Assembly: GCA_019739225.1 (NCBI GenBank)
Contig: JAHHDT010000001.1
Span: forward strand, 558,001 to 622,000
From: Aquamicrobium sp.
GTDB taxonomy: Bacteria; Pseudomonadota; Alphaproteobacteria; Rhizobiales; Rhizobiaceae
Direction of reading: 5' to 3'
Length of the DNA: 64,000 nucleotides
Shown here piece by piece: positions 2,066 to 30,257 of this stretch. Position numbers and translations under genes: made by a program. The stretch's first letter is position 1, and the number at the start of each line of letters is the position of its first letter. Below the pieces are notes generated by a model. It worked only from the letters and a program-made list of their open reading frames with translations. It did not search any database and was not told the origin of the DNA.

Positions 2066-2087
2066 ACTTATTCGTCGAATAGCAAGT
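2066..2087. promoter_or_regulatory. predicted TetR operator, copy 1
   Basis: Imperfect inverted repeat ACTTATT-N8-AGCAAGT, 33 bp upstream of the hydratase start. It matches the layout of six further copies in the island; here the left half is the diverged one. It lies in the 331-bp divergent region 2034-2364, which also holds copy 2 and holds no gene. Confidence 0.6.
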
Positions 2088-2321
2088 TATATCGGAGCCG
2101 GCAATTTGAGGCTTGGCGGCGGGTCGGGTATCAGCCATGACAATATGCCACCCGCGCGAAGGAATCCCCTTTTTCCATACGGCCTAGCCTGTAGCGACAA
2201 ACGTCGGTCAGGCTTTGCTGGCAAGATGGCCGTGCCATGATCGTATTGCATTGATGCGGGCGCGCGGCTGTTGGTTCGCATCGCCGCGATGCCGCTTTCG
2301 TAGCAAGAAAGCTTGCATTAT

Positions 2322-2343
2322 TTTTGCTAGCTATATAGCAAGT
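2322..2343. promoter_or_regulatory. predicted TetR operator, copy 2
   Basis: Inverted repeat TTTTGCT-N8-AGCAAGT containing perfect arms TTGCT and AGCAA, 21 bp before the ligase start at 2365. An SD-like GGAGG lies at 2352-2356 just after it, so a bound protein would block the promoter or early transcription. A second, closer-spaced pair GCAAG/CTTGC lies at 2303-2316. Confidence 0.72.
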
Positions 2344-2364
2344 ATGTAACCGGGAGGACGTTGA

Positions 2365-3999
2365 ATGGAATCTGCCGAGGCCATGGCGCGCGATCTGCAA
2401 GATTTGCGGAAAGATTGCGTGCTGCGCGACATCATCGATCATCGCGCCGCCGAGTCCCCGGACAAGGTCTTTGCTATCTTTGAAAATGGTTCGCAATGGA
2501 CCTTTGCCACGCTGAGAACAAAGGTGCGACGAGTCGCAGCCGGGCTCCACGCATGTGGCGTAAAGCCAGGCGACGTGGTCGCCGGATGGCTGCCGAACGG
2601 TCCCGACGCGCTTTCGGTCTGGTTCGGGGTCAACTATCTTGGTGCGATCTACGCGCCGATCAATATAGCCATGCGCGGCAAGGTCCTGGCCAACATCATA
2701 AACAACTCAGGTGCGCGGCTTATGATTGCCGATGCAACGCTGATCGAGCGGTTGAACGATGTGGACACCGGTGACCTGCAGCGCATCATTGCCGTCGGAA
2801 CGCCAACAGGCCACACCCCTCCTGCTCTGGAGATCGTGGATTCCAGCATTCTCGATCAGGCTGACGACAGCGGACTGCCGGACGTGACCATCGAGCCATG
2901 GGACACGCAACTGATCATCTATACGTCGGGAACCACAGGCCCTTCGAAGGGTGTGATGACCTCCAGTCTGCATTTGAGAGCGACGGCCACGTCGTTCCTT
3001 TATCTCCGCTCCGACGACCGCGGTCTTTTGAGCTTGCCGCTCTTTCACGTGAGCGGCATCGGACTTGCCTATCGCCTGCTTCGCATTGGCGGATCGTGCG
3101 CCGTCACCGATTCCTTCCGTACGCAGACGTTCTGGGAATCCGTACGCCGCTACAACATTACGACGATGACGCTGCTGGGCGCGATGGCGGAGTTTCTGCT
3201 GAAGACGCCAGTTGCCTCCGAGGATGCGAACAATCCCCTGCGCGCAATAAACATCGTCCCTTTCGGACGGATCGCAAAGGAGTTCGGACGCCGCTTCGGC
3301 GTCGACGTCTACACGAGTTTCAACATGACTGAGGTCAGCAATCCGATCGTATCGGGCCTCAATCCCGATGCGGAAGGCACCTGCGGTCGCGCACGCGACG
3401 GTGTGGAGGCCCGCATCGTCGACGAGAACGATTTCGAGGTACCTACCGGAGCCGTCGGTGAACTGGTGGTCCGGAGCGATGCGCCATGGACCATGACATC
3501 GGGCTACTACCGGGATCCGGAAGCAACCGCGCGCGCCTGGCGCAATGGCTGGTTTCATACCGGCGACGCCTTTCGTTGCGACGAGGCCGGCAATTTCTAC
3601 TTTGTCGACCGGCTTAAGGATGCGATCCGGCGTCGCGGCGAGAACATTTCGACGTTCGAAGCCGAAGGCGCGATCTGCGAGCATCCGGACGTGCGCGAGG
3701 CTGCCGTGGTCGGCGTCCCCGGCGCGGGCGGAGAGAGTGACGTGCTGGCGGTTCTGGCGCCCGTGGAAGGCATGGAGATCGATCCTGTAGAGATGATCGA
3801 ATTCCTTCGACCAAGGATGCCGCACTTCATGATCCCCCGCTATATCCGCATCCTCCCGGAACTTCCGAAGACCTCGTCCCAGAAAGTCCAGAAGCATTTG
3901 TTGCGCGATGCGGCAATCACACCCGACACGTGGGACAGGGAGGCTGCGGGGATTGAGGTAAAGCGCGAAAGACTCATGGCACGGGAAGAACAAGGATGA
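2365..3999 (+). CDS. AMP-forming acyl-CoA synthetase (ligase 1)
   Basis: 544-residue class I adenylate-forming enzyme, expected to activate a carboxylic acid to its CoA thioester with ATP. The P-loop IIYTSGTTGPSKGVM lies at about residues 186-200. The FNMTE motif (about 318), the GWFHTGDAF hinge region and a C-terminal lysine in KTSSQKVQKHLL (about 507-518) are present, so both lobes look complete. It resembles the CaiC/long-chain ligase branch; substrate cannot be read from sequence. GGAGG lies 8 bp before the ATG and an operator copy lies immediately upstream. It overlaps the carboxyltransferase gene by ATGA, implying coupled translation. Confidence 0.88.
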   Translation: MESAEAMARDLQDLRKDCVLRDIIDHRAAESPDKVFAIFENGSQWTFATLRTKVRRVAAGLHACGVKPGDVVAGWLPNGPDALSVWFGVNYLGAIYAPINIAMRGKVLANIINNSGARLMIADATLIERLNDVDTGDLQRIIAVGTPTGHTPPALEIVDSSILDQADDSGLPDVTIEPWDTQLIIYTSGTTGPSKGVMTSSLHLRATATSFLYLRSDDRGLLSLPLFHVSGIGLAYRLLRIGGSCAVTDSFRTQTFWESVRRYNITTMTLLGAMAEFLLKTPVASEDANNPLRAINIVPFGRIAKEFGRRFGVDVYTSFNMTEVSNPIVSGLNPDAEGTCGRARDGVEARIVDENDFEVPTGAVGELVVRSDAPWTMTSGYYRDPEATARAWRNGWFHTGDAFRCDEAGNFYFVDRLKDAIRRRGENISTFEAEGAICEHPDVREAAVVGVPGAGGESDVLAVLAPVEGMEIDPVEMIEFLRPRMPHFMIPRYIRILPELPKTSSQKVQKHLLRDAAITPDTWDREAAGIEVKRERLMAREEQG

Positions 4000-5522
4000 C
4001 TGTTTCCGACGACGGACAGGAACGAGCCACGCGCCTGGGACAATTGCGAAAAGCAAAGGCAGCGCTACTGGATGAAGCACGCCCCAAAACGGTGAAGCGA
4101 CAGGCGGACCGAAACGTCGCGACCGTCCGGTCCGTGATATCGGAGCTTTTCGACACGGATAGCTTCGTCGAACTGGGAGGGCTGGCATTGCCGGCTGTCG
4201 CCGGCATGGAGGGCGCGGGAGACGGGGTGGTGATGGGTTTCGGTCGCGTCGGCGGTGCGCCTGCGGACTTCTTCGCCTACGACTATTCCGTCTATGCCGG
4301 CACCCAAAGCACGATCAACCACCGGAAGGTCACGAGGATCATCCAGCATGCCGCGGCCAACGGCCGTCCGCTCCTTTGCTGGCTCGACGGCGGGGGCGCA
4401 CGGCCGCATGACATGCTCGTGGAGGGACGCGGACCAACATCGACTTTTGTCGACTTCGCGAGATTGTCCGGGGTCGTTCCCCGCATAGGGGTCGTTCCAG
4501 GTGTTGCGTTCGCGGGCCAGGCGAACCTGGCCGGAATGTGCGACATACTGATTGCGACGCGAAACAGCGTCCTCGGTCTCGCTGGCCCTCCGCTCGTTGA
4601 AGCCGCGATGGGGCAGAAGATGACGCCCCAGGAAATCGGTGGTGTCGAAAAACACGTCAAGAGCGGTGTGGTTGACCTTCTGGTGGAAGACAGTCAGGAG
4701 GCAATTCGACTTGCGCGCCGGGTGCTTGGCTATTTCGCCTCGCCCGAACAACCGGTCGAAAGCCCCGACGCGAAAGAACTCCGAGGGATCGTTCCCGACA
4801 GTCCCAGACGGGCATATGACGTTCGGCGAGTTGTGCAGGGCATAGTCGACAAGGAAAGCATGCTCGAACTGAAGCCGTCCTGGGGCCGATCGATCGTGAC
4901 TTGCCTAGCCAGGTTGAACGGACGGACAGTGGGCGTCCTTGCAAATCAGCCGATGATGATGGCCGGCGGCATAGACGCCGCAAGCGCCGCGAAGGCAGCC
5001 CGCTTCATCCAGATATGCGACGCGTTCGACTTCCCCGTGGTTCTGCTTTGCGACACGCCCGGCCTCCTCGTCGGCCCGGATGTCGAAGAGACCGGTCTGG
5101 TACGTCACAGCGCTCGCATGCTGACCGCATTGGCTACATCCACGGTACCCATACTCACGGTCGTCCTTCGCAAAGCCTATGGCTTGGGATACTACATCAT
5201 GGGCTCGGCGGCGTTTCAGCCCGACCTCCTGGTTGCATGGCCAACCGCAGAGTTTGGCGGAATGGGGCTCGAAGGAGCCGTCAACATCATCCACCGCCGT
5301 GAACTTGATGCCACGCCTTCCGCTGATGAACGCAAAGCTCTGCATGGCGCGCGTACTGAAGAGCTGCGCCGCGCCAACACGGCCTTTGCGGCCGCGGAAC
5401 GTTTCCAGATCGATGATGTGATCGACCCGGCCGACACCCGCGCCCTGCTGATCGCTGCCCTTGCACATCGGGGAAGCCAACGAAGCGACAAGCGCATGCG
5501 GCGCATTATCGACGCTTTCTAA
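3996..5522 (+). CDS. acyl-CoA carboxylase carboxyltransferase subunit (CT 1)
   Basis: 508-residue member of the PccB/MccB/AccD carboxyltransferase family, which moves CO2 from carboxybiotin to an acyl-CoA. Both crotonase-like halves are present: the N-terminal half with LLCWLDGGGARPHD and GVVPGVAFAGQANLAGMCD, the C-terminal half with GGIDAASAAKAARFIQICD, LLCDTPGLLVG and LRKAYGLGYYIMG. The family usually has 510-540 residues, so this one is complete. It overlaps ligase 1 by four bases, pairing activation with carboxylation. No BC or BCCP gene is adjacent; those lie at 17.5-19.1 kb. A second, diverged CT lies at 10.8-12.3 kb, so the acceptor substrates probably differ. Confidence 0.86.
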   Translation: MTVSDDGQERATRLGQLRKAKAALLDEARPKTVKRQADRNVATVRSVISELFDTDSFVELGGLALPAVAGMEGAGDGVVMGFGRVGGAPADFFAYDYSVYAGTQSTINHRKVTRIIQHAAANGRPLLCWLDGGGARPHDMLVEGRGPTSTFVDFARLSGVVPRIGVVPGVAFAGQANLAGMCDILIATRNSVLGLAGPPLVEAAMGQKMTPQEIGGVEKHVKSGVVDLLVEDSQEAIRLARRVLGYFASPEQPVESPDAKELRGIVPDSPRRAYDVRRVVQGIVDKESMLELKPSWGRSIVTCLARLNGRTVGVLANQPMMMAGGIDAASAAKAARFIQICDAFDFPVVLLCDTPGLLVGPDVEETGLVRHSARMLTALATSTVPILTVVLRKAYGLGYYIMGSAAFQPDLLVAWPTAEFGGMGLEGAVNIIHRRELDATPSADERKALHGARTEELRRANTAFAAAERFQIDDVIDPADTRALLIAALAHRGSQRSDKRMRRIIDAF

Positions 5523-5523
5523 T

Positions 5524-5545
5524 TCTTGCTGTTTACTTAGCAAGT
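5524..5545. promoter_or_regulatory. predicted TetR operator, copy 3
   Basis: Inverted repeat TCTTGCT-N8-AGCAAGT starting one base after the CT 1 stop and 75 bp before the DctP start. Its position suggests that dctP has its own promoter rather than relying on read-through from the ligase-CT operon. Confidence 0.7.
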
Positions 5546-5620: not shown

Positions 5621-6748
5621 ATGAATTTGAGGATGATTGCGGCCACGATGGCCGTCACCGCCCTTACGGCAACGCCGCTTTGGGCAGAAACCTACAACGC
5701 CGCATCCTATTTGCCGCCGAACAACGACACGATGAAGCACGGCTGGCTGCCGTTCATCGATCGCGTCCGCGACAGAACCGCAGGCGAGGTCGATATCAAG
5801 ATGTTCGCGGGCGGTGCATTGCTGGGTCCCCGCGCGATCGCGCAGGGCGTTCGGGACGGCGTTGCCGATGTCGGCTACCTGGTTGCACACTATCACCCGT
5901 CTGAATTTCCTTACACAGGCGGCCTTCTTATGGCCCTTGCCGGACTTAGAACCGATCCCGTACCCGTAACCGCGGCAGCCAACGAGCTTCTGTTCAACTG
6001 CGCCCCGTGCCAGGAAGAAATGTCGCGCAACGGGCTCGTGTTCACGGGCGTGTCGGCAGTGACGCCGATGGCGATCATCGCAAATCAGACGATCGAGACG
6101 AAGGATGACTTTGCCGGCTTGAAGCTCCGCACCGGCGGCCGCTTCTGGGACGATTTCGTGAATACTCTCGGCGGTACCCCGGTCAGCCTGCCAGGGGCCG
6201 AGTTCTACGAGGCTCTGAACCGTGGCGTTGTCGACGGTGTGATGACGGTTCCGAGTTCGATGTCCACCTATTCGCTCGACGACATAGCGACGTTCGTCCT
6301 CGACGCCCGCATCGGCGTCACGAGATCGCAGCTGACGTTCGCCTTCAACGACGACGCCTGGAACCGGATGAACGAGGACAGTCGCAAGATCATTCTGGAA
6401 GAAGCAACCAAATCCAACCTCGACATCGCATGGGGATACCTGCAGAGCGGAGAGGAAGCGTTCAAGACGGCTCGCGACAAGGGCGTTGTGATCGAACGCC
6501 CCAAGGGCGATCTCGCTGACGCGATCGAGGCCTACAATCAGCAGTCCATCGATCACGCGATCACGCAGGCAACCGACGAGTTCGGCATCGCCGACGCAGA
6601 GGCCTTTGTCGAAGAAGCACAGCGTCTTCAAGACAAGTGGAACGCCATCTGGGAAGAGACCGGCAATGATATCGAAGCCTTCAAGGCACGCGCCCTCGAG
6701 GAGATGACTTCAACCGTTGATGCTGCCACTTACGGGATAAAGGACTGA
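5621..6748 (+). CDS. dctP: TRAP transporter substrate-binding protein DctP (SBP 1)
   Basis: 375-residue periplasmic binding protein of the DctP family, with a signal peptide ending near residue 23 (cleavage after LWA). The typical RIAQGVRDG-type and DDFAGLKLRTGG segments are present; the latter carries the arginine that usually contacts the ligand carboxylate. It is a close relative of the binding protein at 9514-10647; the two share an unusual CAPCQEE motif. No DctQ or DctM lies next to it, and a terminator follows, so it probably works with the DctQM at 7.6-9.4 kb. The ATG at 5621 follows GGGAGGAAGAG. Ligand unknown. Confidence 0.88.
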   Translation: MNLRMIAATMAVTALTATPLWAETYNAASYLPPNNDTMKHGWLPFIDRVRDRTAGEVDIKMFAGGALLGPRAIAQGVRDGVADVGYLVAHYHPSEFPYTGGLLMALAGLRTDPVPVTAAANELLFNCAPCQEEMSRNGLVFTGVSAVTPMAIIANQTIETKDDFAGLKLRTGGRFWDDFVNTLGGTPVSLPGAEFYEALNRGVVDGVMTVPSSMSTYSLDDIATFVLDARIGVTRSQLTFAFNDDAWNRMNEDSRKIILEEATKSNLDIAWGYLQSGEEAFKTARDKGVVIERPKGDLADAIEAYNQQSIDHAITQATDEFGIADAEAFVEEAQRLQDKWNAIWEETGNDIEAFKARALEEMTSTVDAATYGIKD

Positions 6749-6825
6749 GCTCTCAAAAACATCCCCGTGGGGGCGGTCTCTGATTTCAAGAAGGCCGCCT
6801 CCGTCGCAGCTGCAAGATCCCTTCC

Positions 6826-6858
6826 AACGGCGCGCGGTCATCCGGCGCCGTTTTTTTT
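6826..6858 (+). terminator. rho-independent terminator after dctP (SBP 1)
   Basis: A perfect 8-bp stem AACGGCGC/GCGCCGTT with an 11-base loop runs directly into eight T residues (6851-6858). The T-tract reaches into the stop codon of the convergent tetR gene. It should end the dctP transcript. Confidence 0.9.
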
Positions 6859-7537
6859 AAACAGCGGGCCACACCGACGGTGCCTGGCCCTTGGCCTTGA
6901 GGATCATGTCGATCCAGCCGGTCAAGGGCTCTTTGGCCCAGTCGAGATCCATACGACCACCGGATTGCATCGCCTGGTGAATCAGCCCCCGGATCATGCC
7001 TACTATGATGATCGCCTGCTGCCGGCAGTCGATGTCGATGGGTATTTCTCCCGCTTCCTTGGCTTCGTTAAGATGCGCGATGAACCCTTGGCGAAAGCCT
7101 TCCTCGAGCTTGTTGATCCTGGGAAGGATTTCAGGCTCGACCGTCAATGATTCCGTCATCAGGAAGTACAGCGAACGCAAGGCGGCAGGATGCTCCTGGG
7201 CGCCATCCAGATGTGCAATGATACGGGCGCGGACGGCATCCAAGCCTTGCCGTCCTTCCAATCGGTCCCGCAGCTTCTCCTGGAACCAGCGGTCGATCTG
7301 ATCGACCATGGCAATCAGGAAATTCTGCTTGGTTCCGAATCGTTCGTTGAGCAATCCGCGACTGAAGCCGGCAGTCAGACCGATCTCCGCCATGCTCGTG
7401 GCAGCGGACCCCCGAGCACCGATGAGTTTCATGCCGGTTGCAATCAGGCGCTTGTCCGAGCGGCTGCGCCGCTCGGCCTGTGTCAGTCGCTTTTTCGTGT
7501 TGCCGGCCCCCTTGGCGCTTTCCGTCTTTTCCGGCAT
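6857..7537 (-). CDS. TetR-family regulator 1, candidate regulon repressor
   Basis: 226-residue TetR/AcrR regulator. The N-terminal HTH spans about residues 20-70, with recognition segment AEIGLTAGFSRGLLNERFG; the C-terminal half is the usual helical ligand domain. I chose ATG 7537 over the GTG/ATG pair at 7558-7561 because AGGAG precedes it. It is the last gene of the dctP-dctQ-dctM-tetR operon, whose promoter carries operator copy 4, which suggests autoregulation. It is clearly related to the regulator at 33108-33776 (GLTAGFSRGLLNERFG against GLTAGYSRGLPGERYG), so the two may bind similar sites. The inducer may be the transported acid or its CoA ester. Confidence 0.87.
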   Translation of the reverse strand: MPEKTESAKGAGNTKKRLTQAERRSRSDKRLIATGMKLIGARGSAATSMAEIGLTAGFSRGLLNERFGTKQNFLIAMVDQIDRWFQEKLRDRLEGRQGLDAVRARIIAHLDGAQEHPAALRSLYFLMTESLTVEPEILPRINKLEEGFRQGFIAHLNEAKEAGEIPIDIDCRQQAIIIVGMIRGLIHQAMQSGGRMDLDWAKEPLTGWIDMILKAKGQAPSVWPAV

Positions 7538-7581
7538 TTCTGCTCCTGTCTCTTGCATCACCGCTCGATTGTTGCGGAAAT

Positions 7582-8889
7582 CTATCGAAGGAGGCTGGGC
7601 AGGAATAGAGCAATCTGGGGAAACAACATCAGCAGGGTCAGGGTAACCAGATCCGCCAAAATGAACCAGGTCACACCCAGAAATATAGCCTGTGTCGAAA
7701 CGACGTCCTTCAGCACCCCCTTGACCACGAAGACGTTAAGTCCGACGGGCGGCGTGAGCAGCCCAATCTCAAGCAACTTGACCATGACGATGCCGAACCA
7801 GATAAGGTCGATGCTGGCGCCTTCCAGCATTGGCAGAAAGATCGGCAGGGTAAGCAGCATTATTCCGAGGCTGTCGAGGAACATTCCCAAAAGGATGCAG
7901 ACCACCGCGATAATGAGCAGGATCTGAAACTGCCCGAGGCCCTCGCCTACCACGGCTGAGGAGAGCCAGTCCGTAAAGCCGCCGAGAGCCAGCAGACGCG
8001 TCAGCAGATTGGCAGAAATCGCGATGACAAATATCGACGCAGTCGTGAGCAGCGTTTCACGAAACGCCGCCAGCAGGGTGCGCATGTTGAGCGTGCGCAT
8101 GCCGGCCGCGATCACGAGAGAAAGAAAGGCGCCGACGGCCCCGGCCTCCGTCGCCGTAAAGAACCCGGAAAACAGCCCACCAAACACGCCGATGATCAGC
8201 AATAGCGTCGGCCATATTCTTCCCAATGCCGAGAAGCGCTCGGACCAAGTGACCTGATTGAGAACCCTTGGTGCGAGCTGCGGCTTTATGAGTGCCGCGA
8301 AGATGATCACGGCGCTGAACATGGCCGCCGTGAGGAGGCCCGGCAGAAAACCTGCCAGAAAGAGCGGACCGATCGGCACTTCGACGTAAATGCCATAAAG
8401 CAGCAACAGTATGCTGGGCGGTATCATCGAACCGATAGTGCCTGCCGCGGCCGATGTCCCTGCCGCGATCTTGGGATCGTATCCCTGTTTCAGCATGGCC
8501 GGCGTCGCGATGCGGCCGAGGGTCGCCGCGCACGCAACTGACGAAGCGGTTACAGCCGAGAAGCCGGCCCCTGCCCCGATCGTCGCGACGGCGAGACCGC
8601 CGGGAAGCTTCGACAGCCAGACACGTGCCGCGTCGAACAGGCCATCGGTCAGGTTGGCGTGGTGGCAGATGAACCCCATGAAGAGGAACATCGGAACCGA
8701 TGTCAGCGTCCAGCTTGCAATCACCTCATGCGGGATCGCCGTAAGGACACCCAGGGCGATCTTCCAGCCGAAGATGGCCGCGATGCCGCCGATCGAAACC
8801 AGCCCGAGCGCCACCGCGACCGGAAAACGAAGTAGCAGCAGCACCGGAAGGAAGACGAGTGCTGCGATACAGATTTGTACGTCTGTCAT
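7582..8889 (-). CDS. dctM: TRAP transporter large permease DctM
   Basis: 435-residue integral membrane protein with about twelve hydrophobic segments, the TRAP subunit carrying Na+-coupled transport. Typical segments are SVPMFLFMGFICHHA, PGGLAVATIGAGAGFSAVTASSVACAATLG and GTIGSMIPPSILLLLYG. Length is normal for DctM. It follows dctQ by 12 bp and precedes tetR, in the order P-Q-M-regulator. The C-terminus (TPPVGLNVFVVKGV) is intact. Confidence 0.92.
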   Translation of the reverse strand: MTDVQICIAALVFLPVLLLLRFPVAVALGLVSIGGIAAIFGWKIALGVLTAIPHEVIASWTLTSVPMFLFMGFICHHANLTDGLFDAARVWLSKLPGGLAVATIGAGAGFSAVTASSVACAATLGRIATPAMLKQGYDPKIAAGTSAAAGTIGSMIPPSILLLLYGIYVEVPIGPLFLAGFLPGLLTAAMFSAVIIFAALIKPQLAPRVLNQVTWSERFSALGRIWPTLLLIIGVFGGLFSGFFTATEAGAVGAFLSLVIAAGMRTLNMRTLLAAFRETLLTTASIFVIAISANLLTRLLALGGFTDWLSSAVVGEGLGQFQILLIIAVVCILLGMFLDSLGIMLLTLPIFLPMLEGASIDLIWFGIVMVKLLEIGLLTPPVGLNVFVVKGVLKDVVSTQAIFLGVTWFILADLVTLTLLMLFPQIALFLPSLLR

Positions 8890-8901
8890 TTGGGATCACT
8901 T

Positions 8902-9423
8902 TCAGTGAGATTCGTCCTCAACGTCGTCCAGCGGCCTGCTGTCTCCGAAGACAAGCCGCAATCCCTTGATGACGAGAAGCAGAGCGATGAAGCCGCAGCC
9001 GATCGGCAGAAAGAAGCGTGACGGCCAGATCGGCAGGATAAGCGAACCGGTGACCTTCTCCCGCACATGCGCCTTCTCAAGCGCCTCGACCAACGAAACC
9101 CAGGTGAGCAGCCCGTAGAAAGTCACGCTCGCCAGACTAACGACGCCGATCAGCTTTCGTTGTACGGAAGGTGACAGATGTTCGGCCAGAAGGTCGACTG
9201 AGATATGACGATTGCCTCGCTCGACGAGCGCCAGTGGCAGAAAGACGATCGCAACCATGTAGTAGTAGGTGACGATCTCGGTCGTGCCAGGGATCGGGGC
9301 GCGAAATAGTATCTTGCCGACCACATCGGCAACGACATGCAGCATGGCGGCCATAATCGCGATTCCGCCAAGATACCCGACACCGACGCAGAGCCGGTCT
9401 ACAACCTTATAGATCGTTTCCAT
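8902..9423 (-). CDS. dctQ: TRAP transporter small permease DctQ
   Basis: 173-residue membrane protein with four predicted hydrophobic helices (about 14-36, 48-65, 88-110 and 130-152), the DctQ layout. The signature LPLALVERGNRHISVDLLAEHL follows the second helix. It lies between dctP (90 bp upstream, separated by a strong hairpin) and dctM (12 bp downstream). The hydrophilic C-terminus is short and complete. Confidence 0.9.
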   Translation of the reverse strand: METIYKVVDRLCVGVGYLGGIAIMAAMLHVVADVVGKILFRAPIPGTTEIVTYYYMVAIVFLPLALVERGNRHISVDLLAEHLSPSVQRKLIGVVSLASVTFYGLLTWVSLVEALEKAHVREKVTGSLILPIWPSRFFLPIGCGFIALLLVIKGLRLVFGDSRPLDDVEDESH

Positions 9424-9448
9424 CAGCAGATCTTTCCGGAGTGGTTTT

Positions 9449-9472
9449 CTCCGCGCCAGCGCGAGCGCGGAG
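9449..9472 (-). terminator. intercistronic hairpin between dctP and dctQ
   Basis: A perfect 7-bp GC-rich stem CTCCGCG/CGCGGAG with a 10-base loop lies between the dctP stop and the dctQ start. No T-tract follows in the direction of transcription, so partial attenuation or protection of the dctP mRNA 3' end is more likely than full termination. Such a device would give more binding protein than permease. Confidence 0.55.
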
Positions 9473-9513
9473 TTTGTTCAACAGCCAGCGGCGTCAAGCG
9501 CCGGCGCGACAGA

Positions 9514-10710: not shown

Positions 10711-10732
10711 ACTTGCTATATAGATAGCAAGA
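10711..10732. promoter_or_regulatory. predicted TetR operator, copy 4
   Basis: The best-preserved copy: ACTTGCT-N8-AGCAAGA, with an AT-rich centre (ATATAGAT). It lies 63 bp upstream of dctP (SBP 2) and 30 bp beyond the stop of CT 2, so it probably controls the dctP-dctQ-dctM-tetR operon, including the regulator itself. Confidence 0.75.
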
Positions 10733-10762
10733 AATGATTCACCGTGACGTGATTGGATTTCG

Positions 10763-17424: not shown

Positions 17425-17446
17425 ACTTGCTGTGTGTCTAGCAAAT
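17425..17446. promoter_or_regulatory. predicted TetR operator, copy 5
   Basis: Inverted repeat ACTTGCT-N8-AGCAAAT between the divergent MaoC operon (start 17363) and the BCCP operon (start 17509). One bound dimer could control both directions: hydration/cleavage/CT 2 leftwards, biotin carboxylase and biotin uptake rightwards. Confidence 0.72.
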
Positions 17447-17508
17447 AGTGTAGGACGTTTTCAATGGCCGGTTGCGGCCTGGTAAAGGCATACGGAGGCG
17501 TGCGGTTT

Positions 17509-21597: not shown

Positions 21598-21627
21598 TAG
21601 CCATGATGGTCTGCACGGAATCCGCCG

Positions 21628-23169: not shown

Positions 23170-23258
23170 TCTCGGGGACTCCTCGTTTTCGGTATCGGCT
23201 TGTGGCGGCTGCAGCGGCAATCCGCTGCAGCCGCGCGATTCAGCTTCAGCTCTGGCTG

Positions 23259-24128
23259 TCAGCCTGGTGTGCTATCCATCAGGCCGGCGGCAGAGAACCC
23301 GCCATCGGCCGCGATCGTCTGGCCCGTCACAAATCCCGCATCATTGCTGGCCAGATATGCCACCACGCCCGCGATCTCTTCCGGAGCGCCATAGCGGCTC
23401 AACGCCATGCGCGAGGTGAAGGCGCGGCGCGTTGTTTCCTGATGATGCTTTCGCGTCATCGGAGTGTCCACCGGGCCGGGCGCTATGCAGTTGACACGGA
23501 TACCGTATCGACCGAGGTCCATAGCCATCTGCTTGGTGAGATGGATCACGGCGGCCTTGGACGTGCCATAAGCCGTGCGACCCGTTCCTGCCGCGAGGCC
23601 GGCCAGAGAAGCGATGTTGACGATGGCGCCACCGTCTCCCTGCTCGCGCATCTGCCGGGCCGCGGCCTGACCGCAGACGAGCACACCTGTAAGGTTGACA
23701 TCCAGCGTCTTGCGCCAGACCGAGAGCGGCAAATCCAGAAAGTCGTGAAGGGCCGCTACACCGGCGTTGCTGACCATCAGATCGAGGCGGCCGAACCGTT
23801 CGACTGCAACCCGCACCATTGCGTCGACGTCGTCGGCATTGCTGACGTCCCCTACGTGACAGAAGAACCGGTCTTCGCCCCGATCAGTGTCTTTAGCCAC
23901 GCCCGGCACATAATTTGCGGCGCTTTCATGCAATGCCGGCCCATCAAGATCGACAAGCAGCACATTCCAGCCATCGTCGAGTAGCCGGTTGGCGATCGCG
24001 GCACCCAGTCCGCGAGCAGCACCAGTTACGATCGCTACCTTGCGCTTCTCGTCCGGTGTCGCCGCCTCCGTCGATGATTTCGGCCCTGCGCCGGGCGCAG
24101 GGGTCTGTCTGATCTCCTGCGAGGTCAT
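23259..24128 (-). CDS. short-chain dehydrogenase/reductase (SDR 1)
   Basis: 289-residue classical SDR. The cofactor motif is TGAARGLG (about 35-42) after a 28-residue N-terminal extension rich in Pro, Ala and Ser. It also shows VSNAGVA, the catalytic Ser in NIASLAG and YGTSK with Tyr and Lys, and ends with the usual VTGQTIAADGGF. It overlaps the thiolase stop by four bases (ATGA). Beside a thiolase and an enoyl reductase, it most simply oxidises a 3-hydroxyacyl-CoA, but this is inference. Confidence 0.86.
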   Translation of the reverse strand: MTSQEIRQTPAPGAGPKSSTEAATPDEKRKVAIVTGAARGLGAAIANRLLDDGWNVLLVDLDGPALHESAANYVPGVAKDTDRGEDRFFCHVGDVSNADDVDAMVRVAVERFGRLDLMVSNAGVAALHDFLDLPLSVWRKTLDVNLTGVLVCGQAAARQMREQGDGGAIVNIASLAGLAAGTGRTAYGTSKAAVIHLTKQMAMDLGRYGIRVNCIAPGPVDTPMTRKHHQETTRRAFTSRMALSRYGAPEEIAGVVAYLASNDAGFVTGQTIAADGGFSAAGLMDSTPG

Positions 24129-25384
24129 GCGCGATCCGGCCCCTCAAGGATGGTGACCGTGCAAGCCGCCTCGTCAAAGCCGATCGTGCCTCCCCCGTTT
24201 TCCGCGAGGCCAAAACGGGCATTGGCCACCTGACGGGGGCCAGCCTCGCCGCGAAGCTGGACGCAAAGCTCATGAATCATCGACAGGCCGGTGGCACCGA
24301 CCGGATGACCCTTCGACTGAAGCCCGCCAGAGGTGTTGATGGGAAGCCGGCCGCCCATCGACGACGCCCCGGATTCCACGAACGCGCCGCCCTTCCCTTC
24401 CTCACAGAAACGAAGCATTTCGGGCTGGTAGACCTCCGAGAATGCTGTCGCATCGTGAAGTTCGGCAACGTGGATGTCTTCCGGTCCGAGGCCGGCAAGC
24501 TTGTAGGCCTTGTCGGCGGCAATCCGGCTCAGGCCCGGCTCGTCCAGGCTGCGATACTTGCCGCCGGAAAGCGAGCTGGCCCGGATCTTCACCGCGCGGT
24601 CCTGGACCTCACGCGGCATTCGCCGCAGGAAGCTCTCCGAAACCACGATCGCGGCGGCAGCACCGTCACCGATCGGCGCGCACATCGAACGCGTGATGGG
24701 AAAGCTGATTTCACGATCGGCCAGCGCATCCTCGACGGAGACTTCGAACTGGTACTGGGCGAGCGGATTCAGGCTGCCGAAATAGTGGTTCTTGGAGGAA
24801 GCAATCGCGTACTGGCGTTGCGTCGTTCCATATTTCTTCATGTGGTAGGCCGCCTGCATGGCATAGGTATCCATGAACAACGTGCCGCCGCCGGAATTGT
24901 GTATGAACGGCTTTCCCGAAAGCTCGCCAGCCTGCGTATAATACTCTTCCCACTCGCTCTCATCGAAGTGGTCGATACCGCCTTCGAAAAGTGCGCGTGT
25001 ACTGGCCGGGTCGTCCTTGACGAAGGTCTTCTCGACGCCGATCGCCAGAGAGATGTCGTGCAGCCCTGAAATGACGTCCTTCCACGCGCCTTGAAAAGCC
25101 ATGGAAGCGCTGGCGCAACCGCCCTCGACATTGGTGATGCCTACGCGCTCCGGGAAAAGTCCTTCACGCACCAGCGGCGTGAAGCAGACCTGGCCGCGAA
25201 TGTTAGCCTGGCCGAACGTACCCATGCCGCAATTGCTGAACCAGGCGCTCTCGATCTCATGGCCGTTTTCGAGACCGGCCTCGCCGAGCACTCCCAAATA
25301 GGCCTCGCGCGTCAAATCCTTGAAACTGCGATCCGGAAACTTTCCGAAACGTGTGCAGTAGCTACCCAGTATGTATGCGCTCAT
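24125..25384 (-). CDS. SCP-x-type thiolase (acetyl-CoA acyltransferase)
   Basis: 419-residue thiolase of the SCP2/SCP-x branch, cleaving 3-oxoacyl-CoA with CoA. The nucleophile Cys90 lies in NVEGGCASASMAF, the histidine in GLQSKGHPVGATG (about 360) and the last glycine motif in AENGGGTIGF, so it looks active, unlike the thiolase-like protein at 14736. I chose ATG 25384 (MSAYILGS) as the family start. It lies 41 bp after the MECR-like reductase stop and overlaps SDR 1. Confidence 0.88.
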   Translation of the reverse strand: MSAYILGSYCTRFGKFPDRSFKDLTREAYLGVLGEAGLENGHEIESAWFSNCGMGTFGQANIRGQVCFTPLVREGLFPERVGITNVEGGCASASMAFQGAWKDVISGLHDISLAIGVEKTFVKDDPASTRALFEGGIDHFDESEWEEYYTQAGELSGKPFIHNSGGGTLFMDTYAMQAAYHMKKYGTTQRQYAIASSKNHYFGSLNPLAQYQFEVSVEDALADREISFPITRSMCAPIGDGAAAAIVVSESFLRRMPREVQDRAVKIRASSLSGGKYRSLDEPGLSRIAADKAYKLAGLGPEDIHVAELHDATAFSEVYQPEMLRFCEEGKGGAFVESGASSMGGRLPINTSGGLQSKGHPVGATGLSMIHELCVQLRGEAGPRQVANARFGLAENGGGTIGFDEAACTVTILEGPDRA

Positions 25385-25424
25385 ATGTCTTTCCACTTCG
25401 ATCCATTGTCCGGCAGCGCCGGCC

Positions 25425-26426
25425 CTAGTTGGCGTTTTCCGCGGCGGTCACCGGGTCGTTCCCGCGAAATAAAATCTTGCCTCCACGCCCGCTTCTGGCG
25501 GCGTGGCTTAATGCTGTTCGATGATCAGCAAGGCCGTAGACCTGCTCGACTTTCATGTGCAGCTTTCCATCGGCGACAAGTCCGGCCAGCGGACCGTAGA
25601 CGCTCTCAAGCTCCTTTCGTGGGGCGGTATCGGCCCAGGGCGCCAACCAGAAGCCTTCCAGTGTCACCCTCCGAAAGATCAGGTCGGATGGAGCGAGTTC
25701 GGCGTTGCGGCCCGAAAGCAACCCGTAAGTCAGTACCCGGCCGCCCTCTGCGAGATGACCGCCCAATCGCGCTGTGGCCTCGCCGCCTATGGCATCAAGG
25801 GCAAGGCGAGGCCGTTCGGCGCAATGTTCGGGAAGGTCTTCATCTTCCAGCAGCACGATATCGCCGCCGAGATCACGGACCAGCGCCGCTGCCTGCTTGC
25901 TGCGAACGAGATTGATCGTTCTGAACCCAAGATTGCGGGCGAGCTGGATGACGCATTGGCCGACGCCGGAATTCGCGGCGTTCTGAATGATCCAGTCTCC
26001 CGGCTCGAGATCGACGGCACTGTGAAGCATCCTCCAGGCCGTGCCCGGATTGGCCGCCAGCATCGAAAGCTGGGCTGGGTCCGCCTGCGGCAGCGCGAAC
26101 AGGCGCGTCGCATCGAGCGTTAACTGCTCGGCCCAAACCGGTTTGCCGCCGAACCGGAGCAGCACGAGATCGCCGTCGTGGAGGTGGTCCACGCCCGCAC
26201 CCACCTCGATGACCTTCCCGACGCCTTCCACGCCGCATCCCATGGGAAGATGCGGCCGCGAGGCACCGTATCGACCCTGGGTCTTCAGAAGGTCCGAAGG
26301 ATTGATGGGACTTGCAAGCATCAAGACGCGAACCTCACCCCGTCCCGGAGGCGGGGCGAGTTCGGCATCAGCAAGTTCGACGACCTCTGAGGCCTCGCCG
26401 AAACTGTTGAATTGCAGGTGCTTCAT
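25425..26426 (-). CDS. MDR enoyl-thioester reductase (MECR-like)
   Basis: 333-residue medium-chain reductase with no zinc ligands. NPSDLLKTQGRYG (about 41-53), GCGVEGVGKVIEVG and the cofactor region IIQNAANSGVGQCVIQLARNLGFRTINLVR are characteristic of 2-enoyl-thioester reductases (MECR/Etr1). It probably reduces a 2-enoyl-CoA with NADPH. ATG 26426 is used; a GTG two codons earlier is equally possible. Second gene of the operon behind dctP (SBP 3). Confidence 0.85.
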   Translation of the reverse strand: MKHLQFNSFGEASEVVELADAELAPPPGRGEVRVLMLASPINPSDLLKTQGRYGASRPHLPMGCGVEGVGKVIEVGAGVDHLHDGDLVLLRFGGKPVWAEQLTLDATRLFALPQADPAQLSMLAANPGTAWRMLHSAVDLEPGDWIIQNAANSGVGQCVIQLARNLGFRTINLVRSKQAAALVRDLGGDIVLLEDEDLPEHCAERPRLALDAIGGEATARLGGHLAEGGRVLTYGLLSGRNAELAPSDLIFRRVTLEGFWLAPWADTAPRKELESVYGPLAGLVADGKLHMKVEQVYGLADHRTALSHAARSGRGGKILFRGNDPVTAAENAN

Positions 26427-26450
26427 GCTCACGGGGCTCTTTGCGGAGGA

Positions 26451-27458
26451 TCAGGTCAACTGACCCGAGTATTTCTCGAGCGCGGCCCAACCCTCCTCGC
26501 CCAGCTTCTCCTTCCACTCGGCGTAGTAGCCTGCCTCGCGCAGCGCCGCCTGGAACTTGGTCGGGTCGGGGTGGGTAAAGGTGACCCCCCTACCTTTCAG
26601 TTCCTCCTCCAATGAGGCATCGAGCTCGATCACATCCTGTCGCTGTGCGTTCTGTGCGGTCTGGAGATGCTCTAGAAGCAGCGCACGATTCTGGTCCGAC
26701 ATCCCCTCATAGAAGCGCCGGCTGGCCAGTGTCAGGAACCCGTCCCACATGTGATTTGTCATCGCGCAGTAAGGTTGCACCTCGTAGAACTTCAGGGCGC
26801 TGAAGAGCGCCAGACCGTTCTCCTGACCATCCACGACCTTGGTCTGCAGTGCGGTGTAGGTGTCGGCGATATTGACAACGGTCGGCGAGGTGCCGAACGC
26901 AGTGAACACCGACATCAGCATCGGGGCAGGCGCGACCCGGAACTTCATGCCCGCAAGGTCCGCAGGTTCGTCGATCGGGACCGAGCTGGTCGATATCTGA
27001 CGGTATCCGTTATTCCAGATACCCGGCAGCATCTCGATATTGGCCTTGGCGGTTTCCTTGCGGATAAAGGCGCCGAGGTCGCCGTCGAGTGCTGCGAAGG
27101 CATCCTCGGCCTTGGGAAAGGCGAAAGCGGTATTGTAGATGAGCGACGCCGGCACCAGATTAGCCAGCACGCCGCCGGAAATGAGCTGTATCTCGACCGC
27201 ACCGGACCGGATCTGCGACAGGACGTCGGTGTCCGAGCCTAGCTGGCTGCTTGGAAAGATATTCAGCTGTACCTCGCCCGAAGACGCTTCGGCGATACTT
27301 TTGGCTGCCTCGTTCAAGCGCACGGCAACCGGGTGCGACGGCGGCATGTTGGTCGATATCTTGATCCGCGTCGCCTGAGCGCGCCCGATTACAGGAATCG
27401 CCGTAGCGACAAACAGGCCTCCCGCGCCAGCGAGAACACTGCGCCGTGTTGGTTTCAT
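26451..27458 (-). CDS. dctP: TRAP transporter substrate-binding protein DctP (SBP 3)
   Basis: 335-residue binding protein with a Tat-like signal (TRRSVLAGAGG...GRAQA, cleavage near residue 26). Typical DctP segments are IFPSSQLGSDTDVLSQIRSG, ADLAGMKFRVAPAP with the ligand arginine, and YTALQTKVVDGQENGLALF. Its closest relative in the window is the divergent SBP 4 at 27579, not SBP 1 or 2. The frame stays open far upstream, but that part is only the mirror of SBP 4; ATG 27458 with GGAGTGG upstream is the real start. First gene of the operon down to the decarboxylase, under operator copy 6. Confidence 0.9.
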   Translation of the reverse strand: MKPTRRSVLAGAGGLFVATAIPVIGRAQATRIKISTNMPPSHPVAVRLNEAAKSIAEASSGEVQLNIFPSSQLGSDTDVLSQIRSGAVEIQLISGGVLANLVPASLIYNTAFAFPKAEDAFAALDGDLGAFIRKETAKANIEMLPGIWNNGYRQISTSSVPIDEPADLAGMKFRVAPAPMLMSVFTAFGTSPTVVNIADTYTALQTKVVDGQENGLALFSALKFYEVQPYCAMTNHMWDGFLTLASRRFYEGMSDQNRALLLEHLQTAQNAQRQDVIELDASLEEELKGRGVTFTHPDPTKFQAALREAGYYAEWKEKLGEEGWAALEKYSGQLT

Positions 27459-27514
27459 AATCCACTCCTCCATGAATGAGGCCGCATGTTTCCATGCATA
27501 AAGCCTCCCCGTCA

Positions 27515-27536
27515 AGTTATTTGTTGACAAGCAAGT
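27515..27536. promoter_or_regulatory. predicted TetR operator, copy 6
   Basis: Inverted repeat AGTTATT-N8-AGCAAGT with centre TGTTGACA, in the 120-bp gap between the divergent SBP 3 and SBP 4 genes. The centre and the weaker left arm resemble copy 7 more than copies 2-5, hinting at a second operator class. Confidence 0.62.
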
Positions 27537-27578
27537 AAACAGGCGGAACTGTCCGCTTTGTTCGATAGGGAGGATTAC

Positions 27579-28589
27579 ATGAAGAGCATCACACGACGCA
27601 CTTTCGCCTTCGGCGCAGGTGCTGCCGTCTCCGTTTTCGCCATAACCGGCCGCGCAAGGGCAGCACAGTTCCGGTGGCGTTTCGCCAACAATGCGCCGCT
27701 CGATTATCCGCTGAATGTGCGCTCGCGCGAAGCTGCACAAACCATCCTGGAGCGTACGGACGGAGGTCTGGACATCCAGATATTTCCAAACGGGCAGCTG
27801 GGTTCCGATACCGACATGCTCTCCCAGGTGCGTTCGGGCGCAGTGAACATGTTCACGCTGTCGCCGCTGGTGATCTCGACGCTTGCACCTGCGGCCGCCA
27901 TGAGCGCAATGGGATTCGCCCTGCCGGACTACGAAACCGTCTGGAAGGCCATGGACGGTGAAGTCGGCGCGTTCGTACGCGAGGGCATAGCCAAGGCGGG
28001 ACTGCATACGCTTGCCCAGCCGATGGACAACGGTTTCCGGGTCATCTCCTCGAGTACGCGCCCCATAACCTCTGCCGACGACTTGGACGGCTTCAAGATT
28101 CGCGTGCCGGTCAGCCCGATCCAGATTTCCATCTTCACAGCGCTCGGTGCCTCCCCGGTAAGTATCAACTACAGCGAACTCTATACGGCGCTTCAGACTG
28201 GCGTGGTGGACGGCCAGGAGAACCCGCTGGCGCTGTTCCCGTTTGCGCGGTTCGACGAGGTCCAGAAATATGGCTCCCTTTCCAACCACATGTGGGATGG
28301 GTTCTGGGTGCTCGTAAACCAGAGATCGTGGAACGAACTGCCTGACGACTACAAGCAGATTGTCTCTGATACCTTCGCAGACCGGATCCGGGTACAGCGC
28401 GAAGACATGCGCAAGCTCAACGACGCCGCCGTTGCCGAAATGGAAGGCAAGGGCATGGTCTTCAACACGCCCGATCCTGAAAGCTTCCGGGCGAAGCTTC
28501 GCCAATCGAAATTCTACGAGGAGTGGAGCGCCAAGTTCGGCGAAGCCGGATGGGCCTCGCTCGAGAAATATTCCGGCCCGTTGATCTGA
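27579..28589 (+). CDS. dctP: TRAP transporter substrate-binding protein DctP (SBP 4)
   Basis: 336-residue binding protein with a Tat-like signal (TRRTFAFGAGAAVSVF...ARAA). It shares long stretches with SBP 3: IFPNGQLGSDTDMLSQVRSGAV, YTALQTGVVDGQENPLALF and NHMWDGF. The ATG at 27579 follows GGGAGG; the frame begins seven codons earlier but without a better site. It is a one-gene unit ended by a strong hairpin, with no permease of its own. The fused DctQM at 30344 is the nearest partner. Confidence 0.9.
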   Translation: MKSITRRTFAFGAGAAVSVFAITGRARAAQFRWRFANNAPLDYPLNVRSREAAQTILERTDGGLDIQIFPNGQLGSDTDMLSQVRSGAVNMFTLSPLVISTLAPAAAMSAMGFALPDYETVWKAMDGEVGAFVREGIAKAGLHTLAQPMDNGFRVISSSTRPITSADDLDGFKIRVPVSPIQISIFTALGASPVSINYSELYTALQTGVVDGQENPLALFPFARFDEVQKYGSLSNHMWDGFWVLVNQRSWNELPDDYKQIVSDTFADRIRVQREDMRKLNDAAVAEMEGKGMVFNTPDPESFRAKLRQSKFYEEWSAKFGEAGWASLEKYSGPLI

Positions 28590-28599
28590 ACAGGAGGTG

Positions 28600-28630
28600 G
28601 CGGCTCTTGCGTTGTTTCTCCAAGAGCCGC
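28600..28630. terminator. hairpin terminator between convergent dctP (SBP 4) and ligase 3
   Basis: Perfect 10-bp stem GCGGCTCTTG/CAAGAGCCGC with an 11-base loop, in the 75-bp convergent gap. It could serve both directions. No long T-tract follows on either side, so rho dependence or 3'-end protection is possible. Confidence 0.7.
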
Positions 28631-28664
28631 TGTCCTCATGTGAATACGGTTGCCGCAGAGCGCC

Positions 28665-30179
28665 TCATATCCTGCGCGATATTCCCTCCCAAAAGGGCGC
28701 GCGGATAGCCTTTCGATCCACCTTCCCGACAGGCGTGCGGGGAAGCGTCGAGCGGAACTCCACCGCTTTCGGTGCCTTGACCGCACCAAGCTCCTTGCGG
28801 CACAGCGCTATGATCTCCTGCGCGTCTGCGGCCGCGTCGGGGCGCAGTTCAACGATCGCTGTGACCGCCTCGCCCCACTTGTCATCCGGGATGCCTATAA
28901 CCGCGCAATCCTGCACCATAGGATGGGAAAGGATGACCCTCTCAACCTCGGCCGGGTAGACGTTGTAGCCACCGGAGATCAGCATCTCCTTCTTGCGGTC
29001 AACGATGTAGATGTAACCGTCCTCGTCCTGATAGCCGACGTCGCCGGACAGCAGCCAGCCGTTCACGATGGTCTCGGCCGTGGCCTTGGGATTCCTGTGG
29101 TATCCGCGCATGACCACGTTACCCGTGACAGCCAGCTCTCCCATCGTGCCACGCGGCACCTCGACGCCGTCGTCGTCCAGGATCGCCATGGGCGAAAATG
29201 GCATCGGGCGCCCGCAGCTCGCCAGCCGGTGAGCGCGTTCCGGCGAGTTCGGCTCGTGCTCGGCCTGGGGCAGACAGGTGCAGAAACAGGGCGCTTCGGT
29301 CTGCCCCCATATCTGAACCATCACCGGGCCGAAGACTTCAAGGCATGTACGCAGTTTCGCCACGGCCATCGGAGCGGCGGAATACATGAAGCACTCCATG
29401 GAACTCAGATCGCGCCGGCGCAAACCAGGTTCCTCCAGCAGCATGTATATGGCCGTCGGCGGCAGCCAGAGATGACTGACCCGGTGTTGCTCGATCGCGT
29501 CCAGTACTGCGCCTGGCGCGAACGCCGGCAAGATGACCACAGTCGCGCCGAGCGCGAAGAGCGGCACCGAGATCGTGCCCGACGCGTGCGTCATCGGCGT
29601 AGATACCAGGTAGGTTGGCGGCTCTGAGACGGGGAGGCTGGCCAGGAAGTTCGCAGACATGGCTTCCCATGTAAGCGAGCTGAATTCGACCCCCTTGGGC
29701 AGGCCGGTCGTTCCACCGGTACTGTAGATGCTGACTACCGTGTCCGTGTCCTCGTGCAGCGTTTCGAGCGCGCCTCCTTCGCCGGCGACCTTCCCTAGTT
29801 CGAAGACATGCCGCAGCATCGGGCACTCGTCCTGCAGCGCTCCGGCGTGCTCGGCCAGATCAGGATGCACGCCGATGGCGGCGACCTCGCAATGGCCCAG
29901 TATGTGCGTGTGTTCGGACGCAAGAGCCGTGGCGCTAAGGGGCACGAACACCAGCCCGGCCCGGTATACGGCGAACATGAACTCGAAAGCCTCAATGCAG
30001 TTGGGACTGAGCAAGGCGACCTTGTCGCCCGCCACCAGCCCCGCCGCCCGAAGCTGATAGGCGATCCTGTCGCGCTCCGCTCGCACCTCGGCGTAGCTTC
30101 TTCTTCGCTCACCCTCGATGAAGCAGGTTCTGTCTCCGTAGAGCGAAGCACCCCGCTCGAACAGGCTGGTCACTCCCAT
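28665..30179 (-). CDS. AMP-forming acyl-CoA synthetase (ligase 3)
   Basis: 504-residue class I ligase closely related to ligase 2 along its whole length. P-loop VSIYSTGGTTGLPKGVEF (about 149-166), VQIWGQTEAP, GWLLSGDVGYQDEDGYIYIVDRKKEMLISGGYNVYP and the C-terminal RTPVGKVDRKAIR are present. It is transcribed alone from the promoter region with operator copy 7, divergently from the DctQM fusion. Two near-paralogous ligases, each beside its own TRAP parts, suggest handling of two related acids. Confidence 0.88.
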   Translation of the reverse strand: MGVTSLFERGASLYGDRTCFIEGERRRSYAEVRAERDRIAYQLRAAGLVAGDKVALLSPNCIEAFEFMFAVYRAGLVFVPLSATALASEHTHILGHCEVAAIGVHPDLAEHAGALQDECPMLRHVFELGKVAGEGGALETLHEDTDTVVSIYSTGGTTGLPKGVEFSSLTWEAMSANFLASLPVSEPPTYLVSTPMTHASGTISVPLFALGATVVILPAFAPGAVLDAIEQHRVSHLWLPPTAIYMLLEEPGLRRRDLSSMECFMYSAAPMAVAKLRTCLEVFGPVMVQIWGQTEAPCFCTCLPQAEHEPNSPERAHRLASCGRPMPFSPMAILDDDGVEVPRGTMGELAVTGNVVMRGYHRNPKATAETIVNGWLLSGDVGYQDEDGYIYIVDRKKEMLISGGYNVYPAEVERVILSHPMVQDCAVIGIPDDKWGEAVTAIVELRPDAAADAQEIIALCRKELGAVKAPKAVEFRSTLPRTPVGKVDRKAIRAPFWEGISRRI

Positions 30180-30235
30180 ACCGTCCCTCCCCTTGCTCGC
30201 CAGCGACCGTGGCCATCGCGATCACCGAGTCATTT

Positions 30236-30257
30236 ACTTGTTTGTTGAAAAGCATAT
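30236..30257. promoter_or_regulatory. predicted TetR operator, copy 7
   Basis: Inverted repeat ACTTGTT-N8-AGCATAT with centre TGTTGAAA, 57 bp before ligase 3 and 87 bp before the DctQM fusion. It is the most diverged copy, but the half-site spacing is the same and the centre nearly equals that of copy 6. Confidence 0.55.

Follow-up and report, generated by a model that had tools for sequence, protein, structure and literature searches.

Catabolic gene clusters under TetR-family repressors have been described in several bacteria, and some of their operators share sequence blocks with the element studied here. In Pseudomonas, AtuR/RdmA represses a cluster for the degradation of acyclic terpenes and diffusible signal factor (DSF) through two operators composed of AGCAAG and CTTGCT blocks (PMC9973270), and KstR2 represses mycobacterial cholesterol degradation genes in three promoter regions from a palindrome of CAAG and CTTG blocks (PMC3068626). 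BkaR is the autoregulated repressor of the mycobacterial branched-chain keto-acid/acyl-CoA carboxylase regulon, with acyl-CoA carboxylase subunits in its cluster (PMC3920632), and the TetR-family proteins PsrA, FadP, LiuQ and FabR exert multi-operon control over proteobacterial fatty-acid and branched-chain amino-acid pathways (PMC5343134). The present study concerns 64,000 nucleotides of Aquamicrobium sp. (the window: assembly GCA_019739225.1, contig JAHHDT010000001.1, forward-strand positions 558,001 to 622,000; coordinates below are those of the window), in which a catabolic island carries seven copies of the inverted repeat ACTTGCT-N8-AGCAAGT and encodes two TetR-family proteins, TetR1 and TetR2. 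Judged from sequence comparison, the seven dyads are very likely operators of the island's own predicted repressor, TetR1, probably shared with its paralogue TetR2.

The island resembles these systems in pairing a catabolic cluster with a putative TetR repressor, and it resembles BkaR further in its carboxylase subunits and predicted autoregulation. The operators themselves differ. The blocks of the AtuR/RdmA sites are reversed and nearly touch (AGCAAG-CG-CTTGG), and the two sites lie 40-42 bp apart at one promoter (PMC9973270), whereas the island has seven sites of the form ACTTGCT-N8-AGCAAGT over about 28 kb. The KstR2 palindrome, AnCAAGnnCTTGnT, is 14 bp long with reversed block order and a 2-bp middle, unlike the island sites (PMC3068626); none of the window sites (CTTGCT-N8-AGCAAG) follows the AGCAAG-N2-CTTGCT order of the AtuR/KstR2 type. 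A by-eye comparison found the BkaR operator core, GTTA(N)T(N4)A(N)TAAC, in none of the window sites, and the available text on BkaR mentions no tripartite ATP-independent periplasmic (TRAP) transporters in its cluster, unlike the island (PMC3920632). PsrA, FadP, LiuQ and FabR are likened to the island by family and regulon, not by motif. No earlier TetR operator of the form ACTTGCT-N8-AGCAAGT was found in the literature, as represented by partial texts and with thin coverage of subscription journals. The motif seems, tentatively, to be newly recognised, the nearest published motifs having these blocks the other way round.

Seven dyads in the promoter regions of the island

The repeat was located at seven starts (2066, 2322, 5524, 10711, 17425, 27515 and 30236), with one to three mismatches each, as a 22-bp dyad with arms ACTTGCT and AGCAAGT and a middle that was constant at 8 bp. 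Operator 1 (2066-2087) stands ahead of an enoyl-CoA hydratase gene on the minus strand, 32 bp from its start at 2033 (two mismatches; score 29.0 on the 28-bp matrix described below), and operator 2 (2322-2343) stands ahead of the plus-strand genes for an acyl-CoA ligase and carboxyltransferase A, 21 bp from the ATG at 2365 (two mismatches; 31.7). Operator 3 (5524-5545) precedes the plus-strand gene for the TRAP solute-binding protein DctP1 (one mismatch; 32.0), and operator 4 (10711-10732), the best site, precedes the minus-strand operon DctP2-DctQ-DctM-TetR1 (one mismatch; 35.2). Operator 5 (17425-17446; one mismatch; 30.5) lies between the minus-strand genes for MaoC-like, thiolase-like, CaiB-type and carboxyltransferase B proteins and the plus-strand genes for biotin carboxyl carrier protein (BCCP), biotin carboxylase, QOR1 and BioY. 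The three-mismatch sites, operator 6 (27515-27536; 28.5) and operator 7 (30236-30257; 26.9), lie between DctP3-QOR2-thiolase2-SDR1-ACS2-ADC (minus) and DctP4 (plus), and between ACS3 (minus) and DctQM-SDR2 (plus), respectively. The likely start codons were at distances of 17-86 bp from the site edges. The initial annotation had reported these seven copies with their 8-base spacing, all between genes, and in this it was confirmed; its further statement that three lie between divergent operons was corrected, as five sites occupy four such regions, 2066 and 2322 sharing one.

By eye, the sites fell into two types of middle sequence, 2322, 5524, 10711 and 17425 on one side and 2066, 27515 and 30236, with TGTTGA or CGTCGA, on the other. 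Beside operator 2, at 2302-2317, a small dyad, AGCAAG-AAAG-CTTGC, has its blocks reversed as in the AtuR/KstR2 sites and may be due to chance. A scan of 1950-2400, the region to which it was confined, found no sigma-70-type promoter.

Chance did not account for the set. With up to three mismatches the window held eight matches, whereas 100 shuffles held 1.51 on average and never more than 5; the additional match, at 34999, lies within a coding open reading frame (ORF) and has the look of chance. A 28-bp matrix was built from both strands of the seven window sites only; in it T is near-invariant at positions 3, 4 and 7 and A at 16, 19 and 20, with A/T-rich flanks. The seven sites scored 26.9-35.2 and the next independent match in the window 11.7. 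When each site was left out in turn, the held-out site scored 21.9-31.6 and was never outranked by a non-site position, and in 80 rounds of Markov shuffling of the window, some 5.1 Mb in all, the top score was 18.4 and 20 was never attained.

Confinement to the island was assessed over the whole genome (5,348,265 bases in seven contigs) by string patterns with reversed-pattern controls. The plain string met three places with at most one mismatch, all of them in the island, and eight with at most two, five of them in the island. At up to three mismatches it was too unspecific to serve as a genome-wide detector: 112 places matched, seven of them the island sites, and the reversed control matched 328, so that the string failed to set the two weakest sites (27515 and 30236) apart. 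The degenerate pattern WBWTRYT-N8-ARYAWVW, which covers all seven sites, matched 14 places, seven in the island and seven elsewhere (control, 9). Ten off-island matches, namely these seven and the three at two mismatches, were scored with a 22-bp matrix, a scoring confined to these ten, and reached at most 15.8 compared with 23.7-28.3 for the island sites. The 28-bp pattern TTNACTTGNT-N8-ANCAAGTNAA, composed after the sites beside related TetR genes were known, matched four places with up to three mismatches, all in the island (2066, 10711, 17425 and 27515; control, 2). The low off-island scores and the restriction of the 28-bp pattern to the island mean that the earlier statement that no copy lies outside it holds as far as tested.

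The site beside related and unrelated regulators

Relatives of the island's TetR proteins were sought in 151 genomes of the family (TetR1 match at 1e-15 in 4), 385 of the class (match at 1e-22 in 13) and 398 of the phylum (match in 12, some common to the class search), the Aquamicrobium genome being included in each count, and in contigs representing one genome per species (4 loci). The 30 stretches around matches and these 4 loci made up a set of 34 loci (L, G and f numbers below denote our loci, genomes and families; G000 is the genome of the window). The top match of the window-only matrix preceded tetR at a distance of 0-200 bp in 19 of the 34 loci, where 0.37 were expected by position, and 14 of those 19 matches scored at least 20. 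Anywhere in the locus, a top match of at least 20 was reached in 20 of 34 loci compared with 2 of 340 Markov shuffles of them. The position matrix proposed in the initial annotation was thus run on the window and on related loci, and the sites stood apart in the former and recurred beside related TetR genes in the latter. Side observations from this set include L084, L085 and L087, where near-identical TetRs of the window's own family, about 30% identical to TetR1, have the same dyad near 10350-10400; in L018 and L021, which are inner portions of L084 and L085, an alpha/beta-hydrolase-like frame, named by eye, lies across the dyad.

The second line of evidence came from islands orthologous to that of the window. 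Nine stretches (L059, L060, L061, L062, L133, L134, L135, L137 and L138) combined a TetR of the same clade with ACS1, the ligase behind operator 2 (best copy 51-59% identical), and with carboxyltransferase and/or TRAP genes, and L139, the other end of the contig of L059, held TRAP genes and a site. All ten stretches had a site, with scores of 25.9-33.0. It immediately preceded tetR or separated two tandem tetR genes, except that it came shortly after tetR in L138 and stood before DctP in L139; L060 and L134 had a second site, scoring 22.0, ahead of DctP. Three continuations of such contigs (L136, L140 and L141) had neither a clade TetR nor a ligase or TRAP gene, and their matrix scores stayed below 15. 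The ten stretches came from seven genomes of two families and are not independent, since G697 belongs to the window's order and the other six (G347, G440, G1189, G1190, G1191 and G1192) to one genus of family f84. A clade search at E 1e-38 recovered only G000 and G697 among 347 genomes of the order, 6 of 9 genomes in f84 and 1 of 3 in f36, which indicated that the regulator clade is rare and patchy. In the f84 stretches, carboxyltransferases A and B (CTa and CTb) lie beside ACS1, with no match to the biotin carboxylase of the window. The neighbour-gene searches of related loci used a 111-residue frame for DctP3 and the whole 839-aa ORF for CaiB, with DctQM effectively left out.

Loci that had the enzymes or other TetR genes served as controls. 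CTa was matched in 40 of the 385 class genomes, and the 11 best-scoring loci were examined, the genome of the window and two already-studied TetR islands excluded. These loci (CTa 49-63% identical) held no TetR1 or TetR2 match at 1e-6, and none reached 20, their top scores being 6.0-19.4. In L172, ACS1 (54%) lies next to CTa (63%) and the matrix maximum was only 7.0; L182 is a second locus of G347 with CTa, separate from the TetR island of that genome. At the TetR loci of the Aquamicrobium genome, where 30 of 43 TetR_N matches were examined in stretches of about 3.1 kb (two identical, two overlapping), the maximum was 14.9. L089 and L090 (G000:C2:7095 and G000:C5:8278) are on different contigs and had identical scores and best matches, representing either a duplicated stretch or an assembly overlap. 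Among plasmid records, TetR1 had no match at 1e-20, TetR2 had one weak match, in Alteromonas sp. I4, with a best site of 18.0, and four loci with ACS1 relatives (of 22 matching records; three with other TetR genes nearby) had no site, the maximum being 9.9. The lack of the site at these control loci indicated that it goes with this TetR subfamily rather than with the enzymes or with TetR genes at large.

A number of observations weigh against the regulon reading. The reversed-pattern controls of the genome searches were not zero (9 and 2 matches for the degenerate and 28-bp patterns). The 34 loci are not independent, L084/L085/L087 and L074/L081 being close, near-identical relatives, and 15 of them lacked a top match in the 200 bp before tetR. 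Scores below 20 were seen for five of the 19 near matches (L067 16.3, L068 18.8, L069 15.9, L079 17.3 and L083 17.2); the AT-rich L069 lay under the mean of its own shuffles (17.8), so that it is supported by position alone. The site of L058 (19.2) heads a DctPQM-tetR operon and not tetR itself. It lies 0.7-8 kb away in L023 (29.2), L063 (20.2), L064 (18.7), L065 (19.8), L066 (21.9) and L075 (34.2), and 4-7 kb away, beside other acyl-CoA genes, in L077 (22.4) and L078 (20.3). A weaker variant, GCTTGCT-N8-AGCGAA, is common to L024, L025 and L026 (9.9-12.8), in L076 the arms are separated by 7 bp and lie beyond the end of tetR, the matrix found no site in L071, and L086 gave neither a TetR match in a stop-free frame nor a site. 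TetR2 itself has no site at its own promoter. As an observation apart, the variant of L024-L026 (near 6789-6860) is kept in three genera, between a short-chain dehydrogenase/reductase (SDR) gene and the DctPQM-tetR operon.

Overall, a local TetR regulon with an operator common to a TetR subfamily was well supported. The proposal of the initial annotation that the island's TetR proteins control it gained comparative support, the site being conserved with the regulator in other genomes (near tetR in 19 of 34 relative loci, and present in 10 of 10 orthologous stretches) and reaching a score of 20 in 0 of 11 loci without a TetR1 or TetR2 match.

Two paralogous regulators and rival explanations

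TetR1 (6857-7537, minus strand; 36.3 bits to Pfam TetR_N on the longer frame 6857-7561, over the cut-off of 24 bits) is encoded last in the TRAP operon behind 10711, the site with the highest score, and is therefore predicted to be autoregulated. It is the best candidate regulator. TetR2 (33108-33776, minus strand; 23.9 bits, just under the cut-off) is 41-43% identical to TetR1 and sits just outside the site-headed operons, convergent with SDR2. The helix-turn-helix segments differ between the paralogues, SRGLLNERFGTK compared with SRGLPGERYGSK, a segment we take to be the recognition helix. In trees, both proteins fell into one well-supported clade with TetRs of TRAP- or ligase-linked loci (in L023, an ABC transporter instead). 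A third TetR-family gene (36999-37832, plus strand; 41.5 bits to TetR_N) lies beyond the island, with no matching operator nearby (best score 10.5 in 36900-37400).

In f84, tandem TetR pairs flanking a single operator were observed (G347, G440 and G1192; L059 1709-3068, L060 9175-10537 and L134 9715-11122), apparently of a different origin from the pair in the window. One-to-one matching of TetR1 and TetR2 to these tandem pairs was rejected or left doubtful by approximately unbiased (AU) tests: grouping TetR2 with one f84 tandem type was rejected (p 0.004), and grouping TetR1 with either type was weakly rejected (0.038 and 0.034). Grouping TetR1 with TetR2 was not rejected (0.41). These results indicated that the regulator pairs probably arose more than once.

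How the two paralogues would divide the sites admits other answers. TetR1 alone may run the island, with TetR2 controlling other genes such as the adjoining APH, acyl-CoA dehydrogenase and SDR genes (33922-37010); only TetR1 lies within a site-headed operon, and TetR2 has no upstream site and adjoins that different gene set. We consider this rather unlikely, as no other protein of the genome is closer to TetR1 than TetR2, which also outscores it as a match in several site-bearing relatives (e.g., L023, L058 and L075). A division into two overlapping sub-regulons, TetR1 acting at 2322, 5524, 10711 and 17425 (arms CTTGCT-N8-AGCAA, no TGTTGA middle) and TetR2 at 2066, 27515 and 30236 (TGTTGA- or CGTCGA-like middle), would fit the two visible middle types, the different putative recognition helices and the position of two of the three TGTTGA/CGTCGA-type sites on TetR2's side of the island. 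It is nonetheless unlikely on present evidence, since there are only seven sites, classed by eye, 2066 is distant from TetR2, and the outer arms are much alike in both classes. An improbable elaboration would have both paralogues on one operator set as a two-input switch, by mixed dimers or competition, the island opening only with two intermediates; it was suggested by the tandem tetR pairs around one operator elsewhere, which seem to have arisen repeatedly.

Other alternatives concern the nature of the sites themselves. A minority of TetR-family proteins activate, AtrA being an example (PMC3511530), and a TetR protein could in principle activate from the island sites; the distances of 17-86 bp from likely starts, the placement on both sides of divergent regions and the site heading the regulator's own operon are the usual layout of a repressor and make activation very unlikely. 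A reading of the dyads as RNA hairpins, as terminators or as copies of a dispersed mobile repeat is hardly tenable, even if all are inverted repeats in intergenic DNA and three have RNA folds that all but a few shuffles fail to equal (z -3.2 to -4.6). Three of the seven barely beat shuffles (z -0.32 to -0.93, with 41-68 of 200 folding equally well) and one is intermediate (-1.35), changes in the arms break the pairing, with Watson-Crick pairs in 4-6 of 7 arm pairs, and no Rfam match was found in 1-40000. The sites also lie ahead of starts, mostly between divergent genes, pattern searches gave no convincing further copies in the genome, and the same sequence lies next to tetR in other families.

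The preferred reading, operators of TetR1 probably shared with TetR2, very probably describes a conventional TetR switch that regulates itself and whose control sequence is newly recognised. A TetR dimer would bind each 22-bp site and block all site-headed operons together, TetR1 repressing its own operon through the operator at 10711. Release of the dimer by an intermediate of the pathway, with an acyl-CoA product of the island's ligases as the likeliest candidate, would turn on uptake by the TRAP systems, activation, biotin-dependent carboxylation with the island's own BCCP and BioY, hydration and thiolysis. Repression by a dimer and release by a metabolite are proposed because of the analogy with BkaR, RdmA/AtuR and KstR2 and of the finding that TetR proteins mostly repress divergently transcribed neighbours lying no more than 200 bp away (PMC3511530). 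The binding, the repression, the ligand, the substrate and the share of each TetR are accordingly put forward as predictions.

Gene content of the island

The site-headed operons hold 27 genes tiling 1239-33076, with starts and stops read from the sequence and operon membership taken from gene order alone; the earlier estimate of some 25 genes was therefore close and is refined to 27. Behind operator 1, on the minus strand, lies an enoyl-CoA hydratase/isomerase (1239-2033; NCBIfam, below equivalog cut-offs), and on the plus strand the acyl-CoA ligase ACS1 (2365-3999; nearest NCBIfam model PRK06155, below cut-off) is followed by the biotin-dependent carboxyltransferase CTa (3996-5522; NCBIfam, and PDB acyl-CoA carboxylase beta chains) and DctP1 (5621-6748; NCBIfam). 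The minus-strand TRAP operon (7582-10647) comprises DctP2 (9514-10647), DctQ (8902-9423) and DctM (7582-8889), identified by NCBIfam and Pfam. Family matches on the minus strand at 10763-17363 gave CTb, a CaiB-type CoA-transferase ORF, a thiolase-like protein, a 168-aa protein (16270-16776; a weak HadB-type match only) and a MaoC-like dehydratase; the CaiB-type frame (12322-14841, minus strand, 839 aa) has two stretches matching CoA-transferase family III and is perhaps a two-domain protein.

The plus-strand operon behind operator 5 begins with BCCP (17464-17724, 86 aa; Pfam Biotin_lipoyl 53.3 bits) and biotin carboxylase (17735-19108; family and PDB matches), continues with the quinone-oxidoreductase-like enzyme QOR1 (19109-20101; family match) and closes with the biotin transporter BioY (20129-20716; Pfam, 112.9 bits), so that biotin uptake appears to be co-controlled with the carboxylase. 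Family matches on the minus strand at 20806-27458 gave an acetoacetate-decarboxylase-like protein (ADC), ACS2, SDR1, thiolase2, QOR2 and DctP3. Beyond them lie the solute-binding protein DctP4 (27579-28589, plus strand; Pfam, on the longer frame 27558-28589), the acyl-CoA ligase ACS3 (28665-30179, minus strand; family match), and the fused TRAP permease DctQM (30344-32239) with SDR2 (32273-33076) on the plus strand (30344-33076; family matches). Between 5621 and 28589 the island has four TRAP solute-binding proteins, compared with two permease sets.

From this content we infer that the island serves the import and breakdown of an acid through ligases, carboxylation, hydration and thiolysis, and the presence of BCCP and BioY in the unit points to biotin-dependent carboxylation as central. 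For ACS1 and the carboxyltransferases, no substrate-specific match was found, the matches being to general NCBIfam models below their cut-offs, and the solved carboxylases in PDB nearest to the island's carboxylase subunits have several different substrates; a search of PDB with the ACS1 ligase at 1e-60 gave no match. The gene content of one catabolic unit is nevertheless fixed (ligase, paired carboxyltransferases, BCCP, biotin carboxylase, BioY and TRAP genes), which narrows the search for its substrate. The operator sequence assigned here to a TetR subfamily of the Pseudomonadota is testable, and it lets the targets of similar unnamed regulators be read from sequence.

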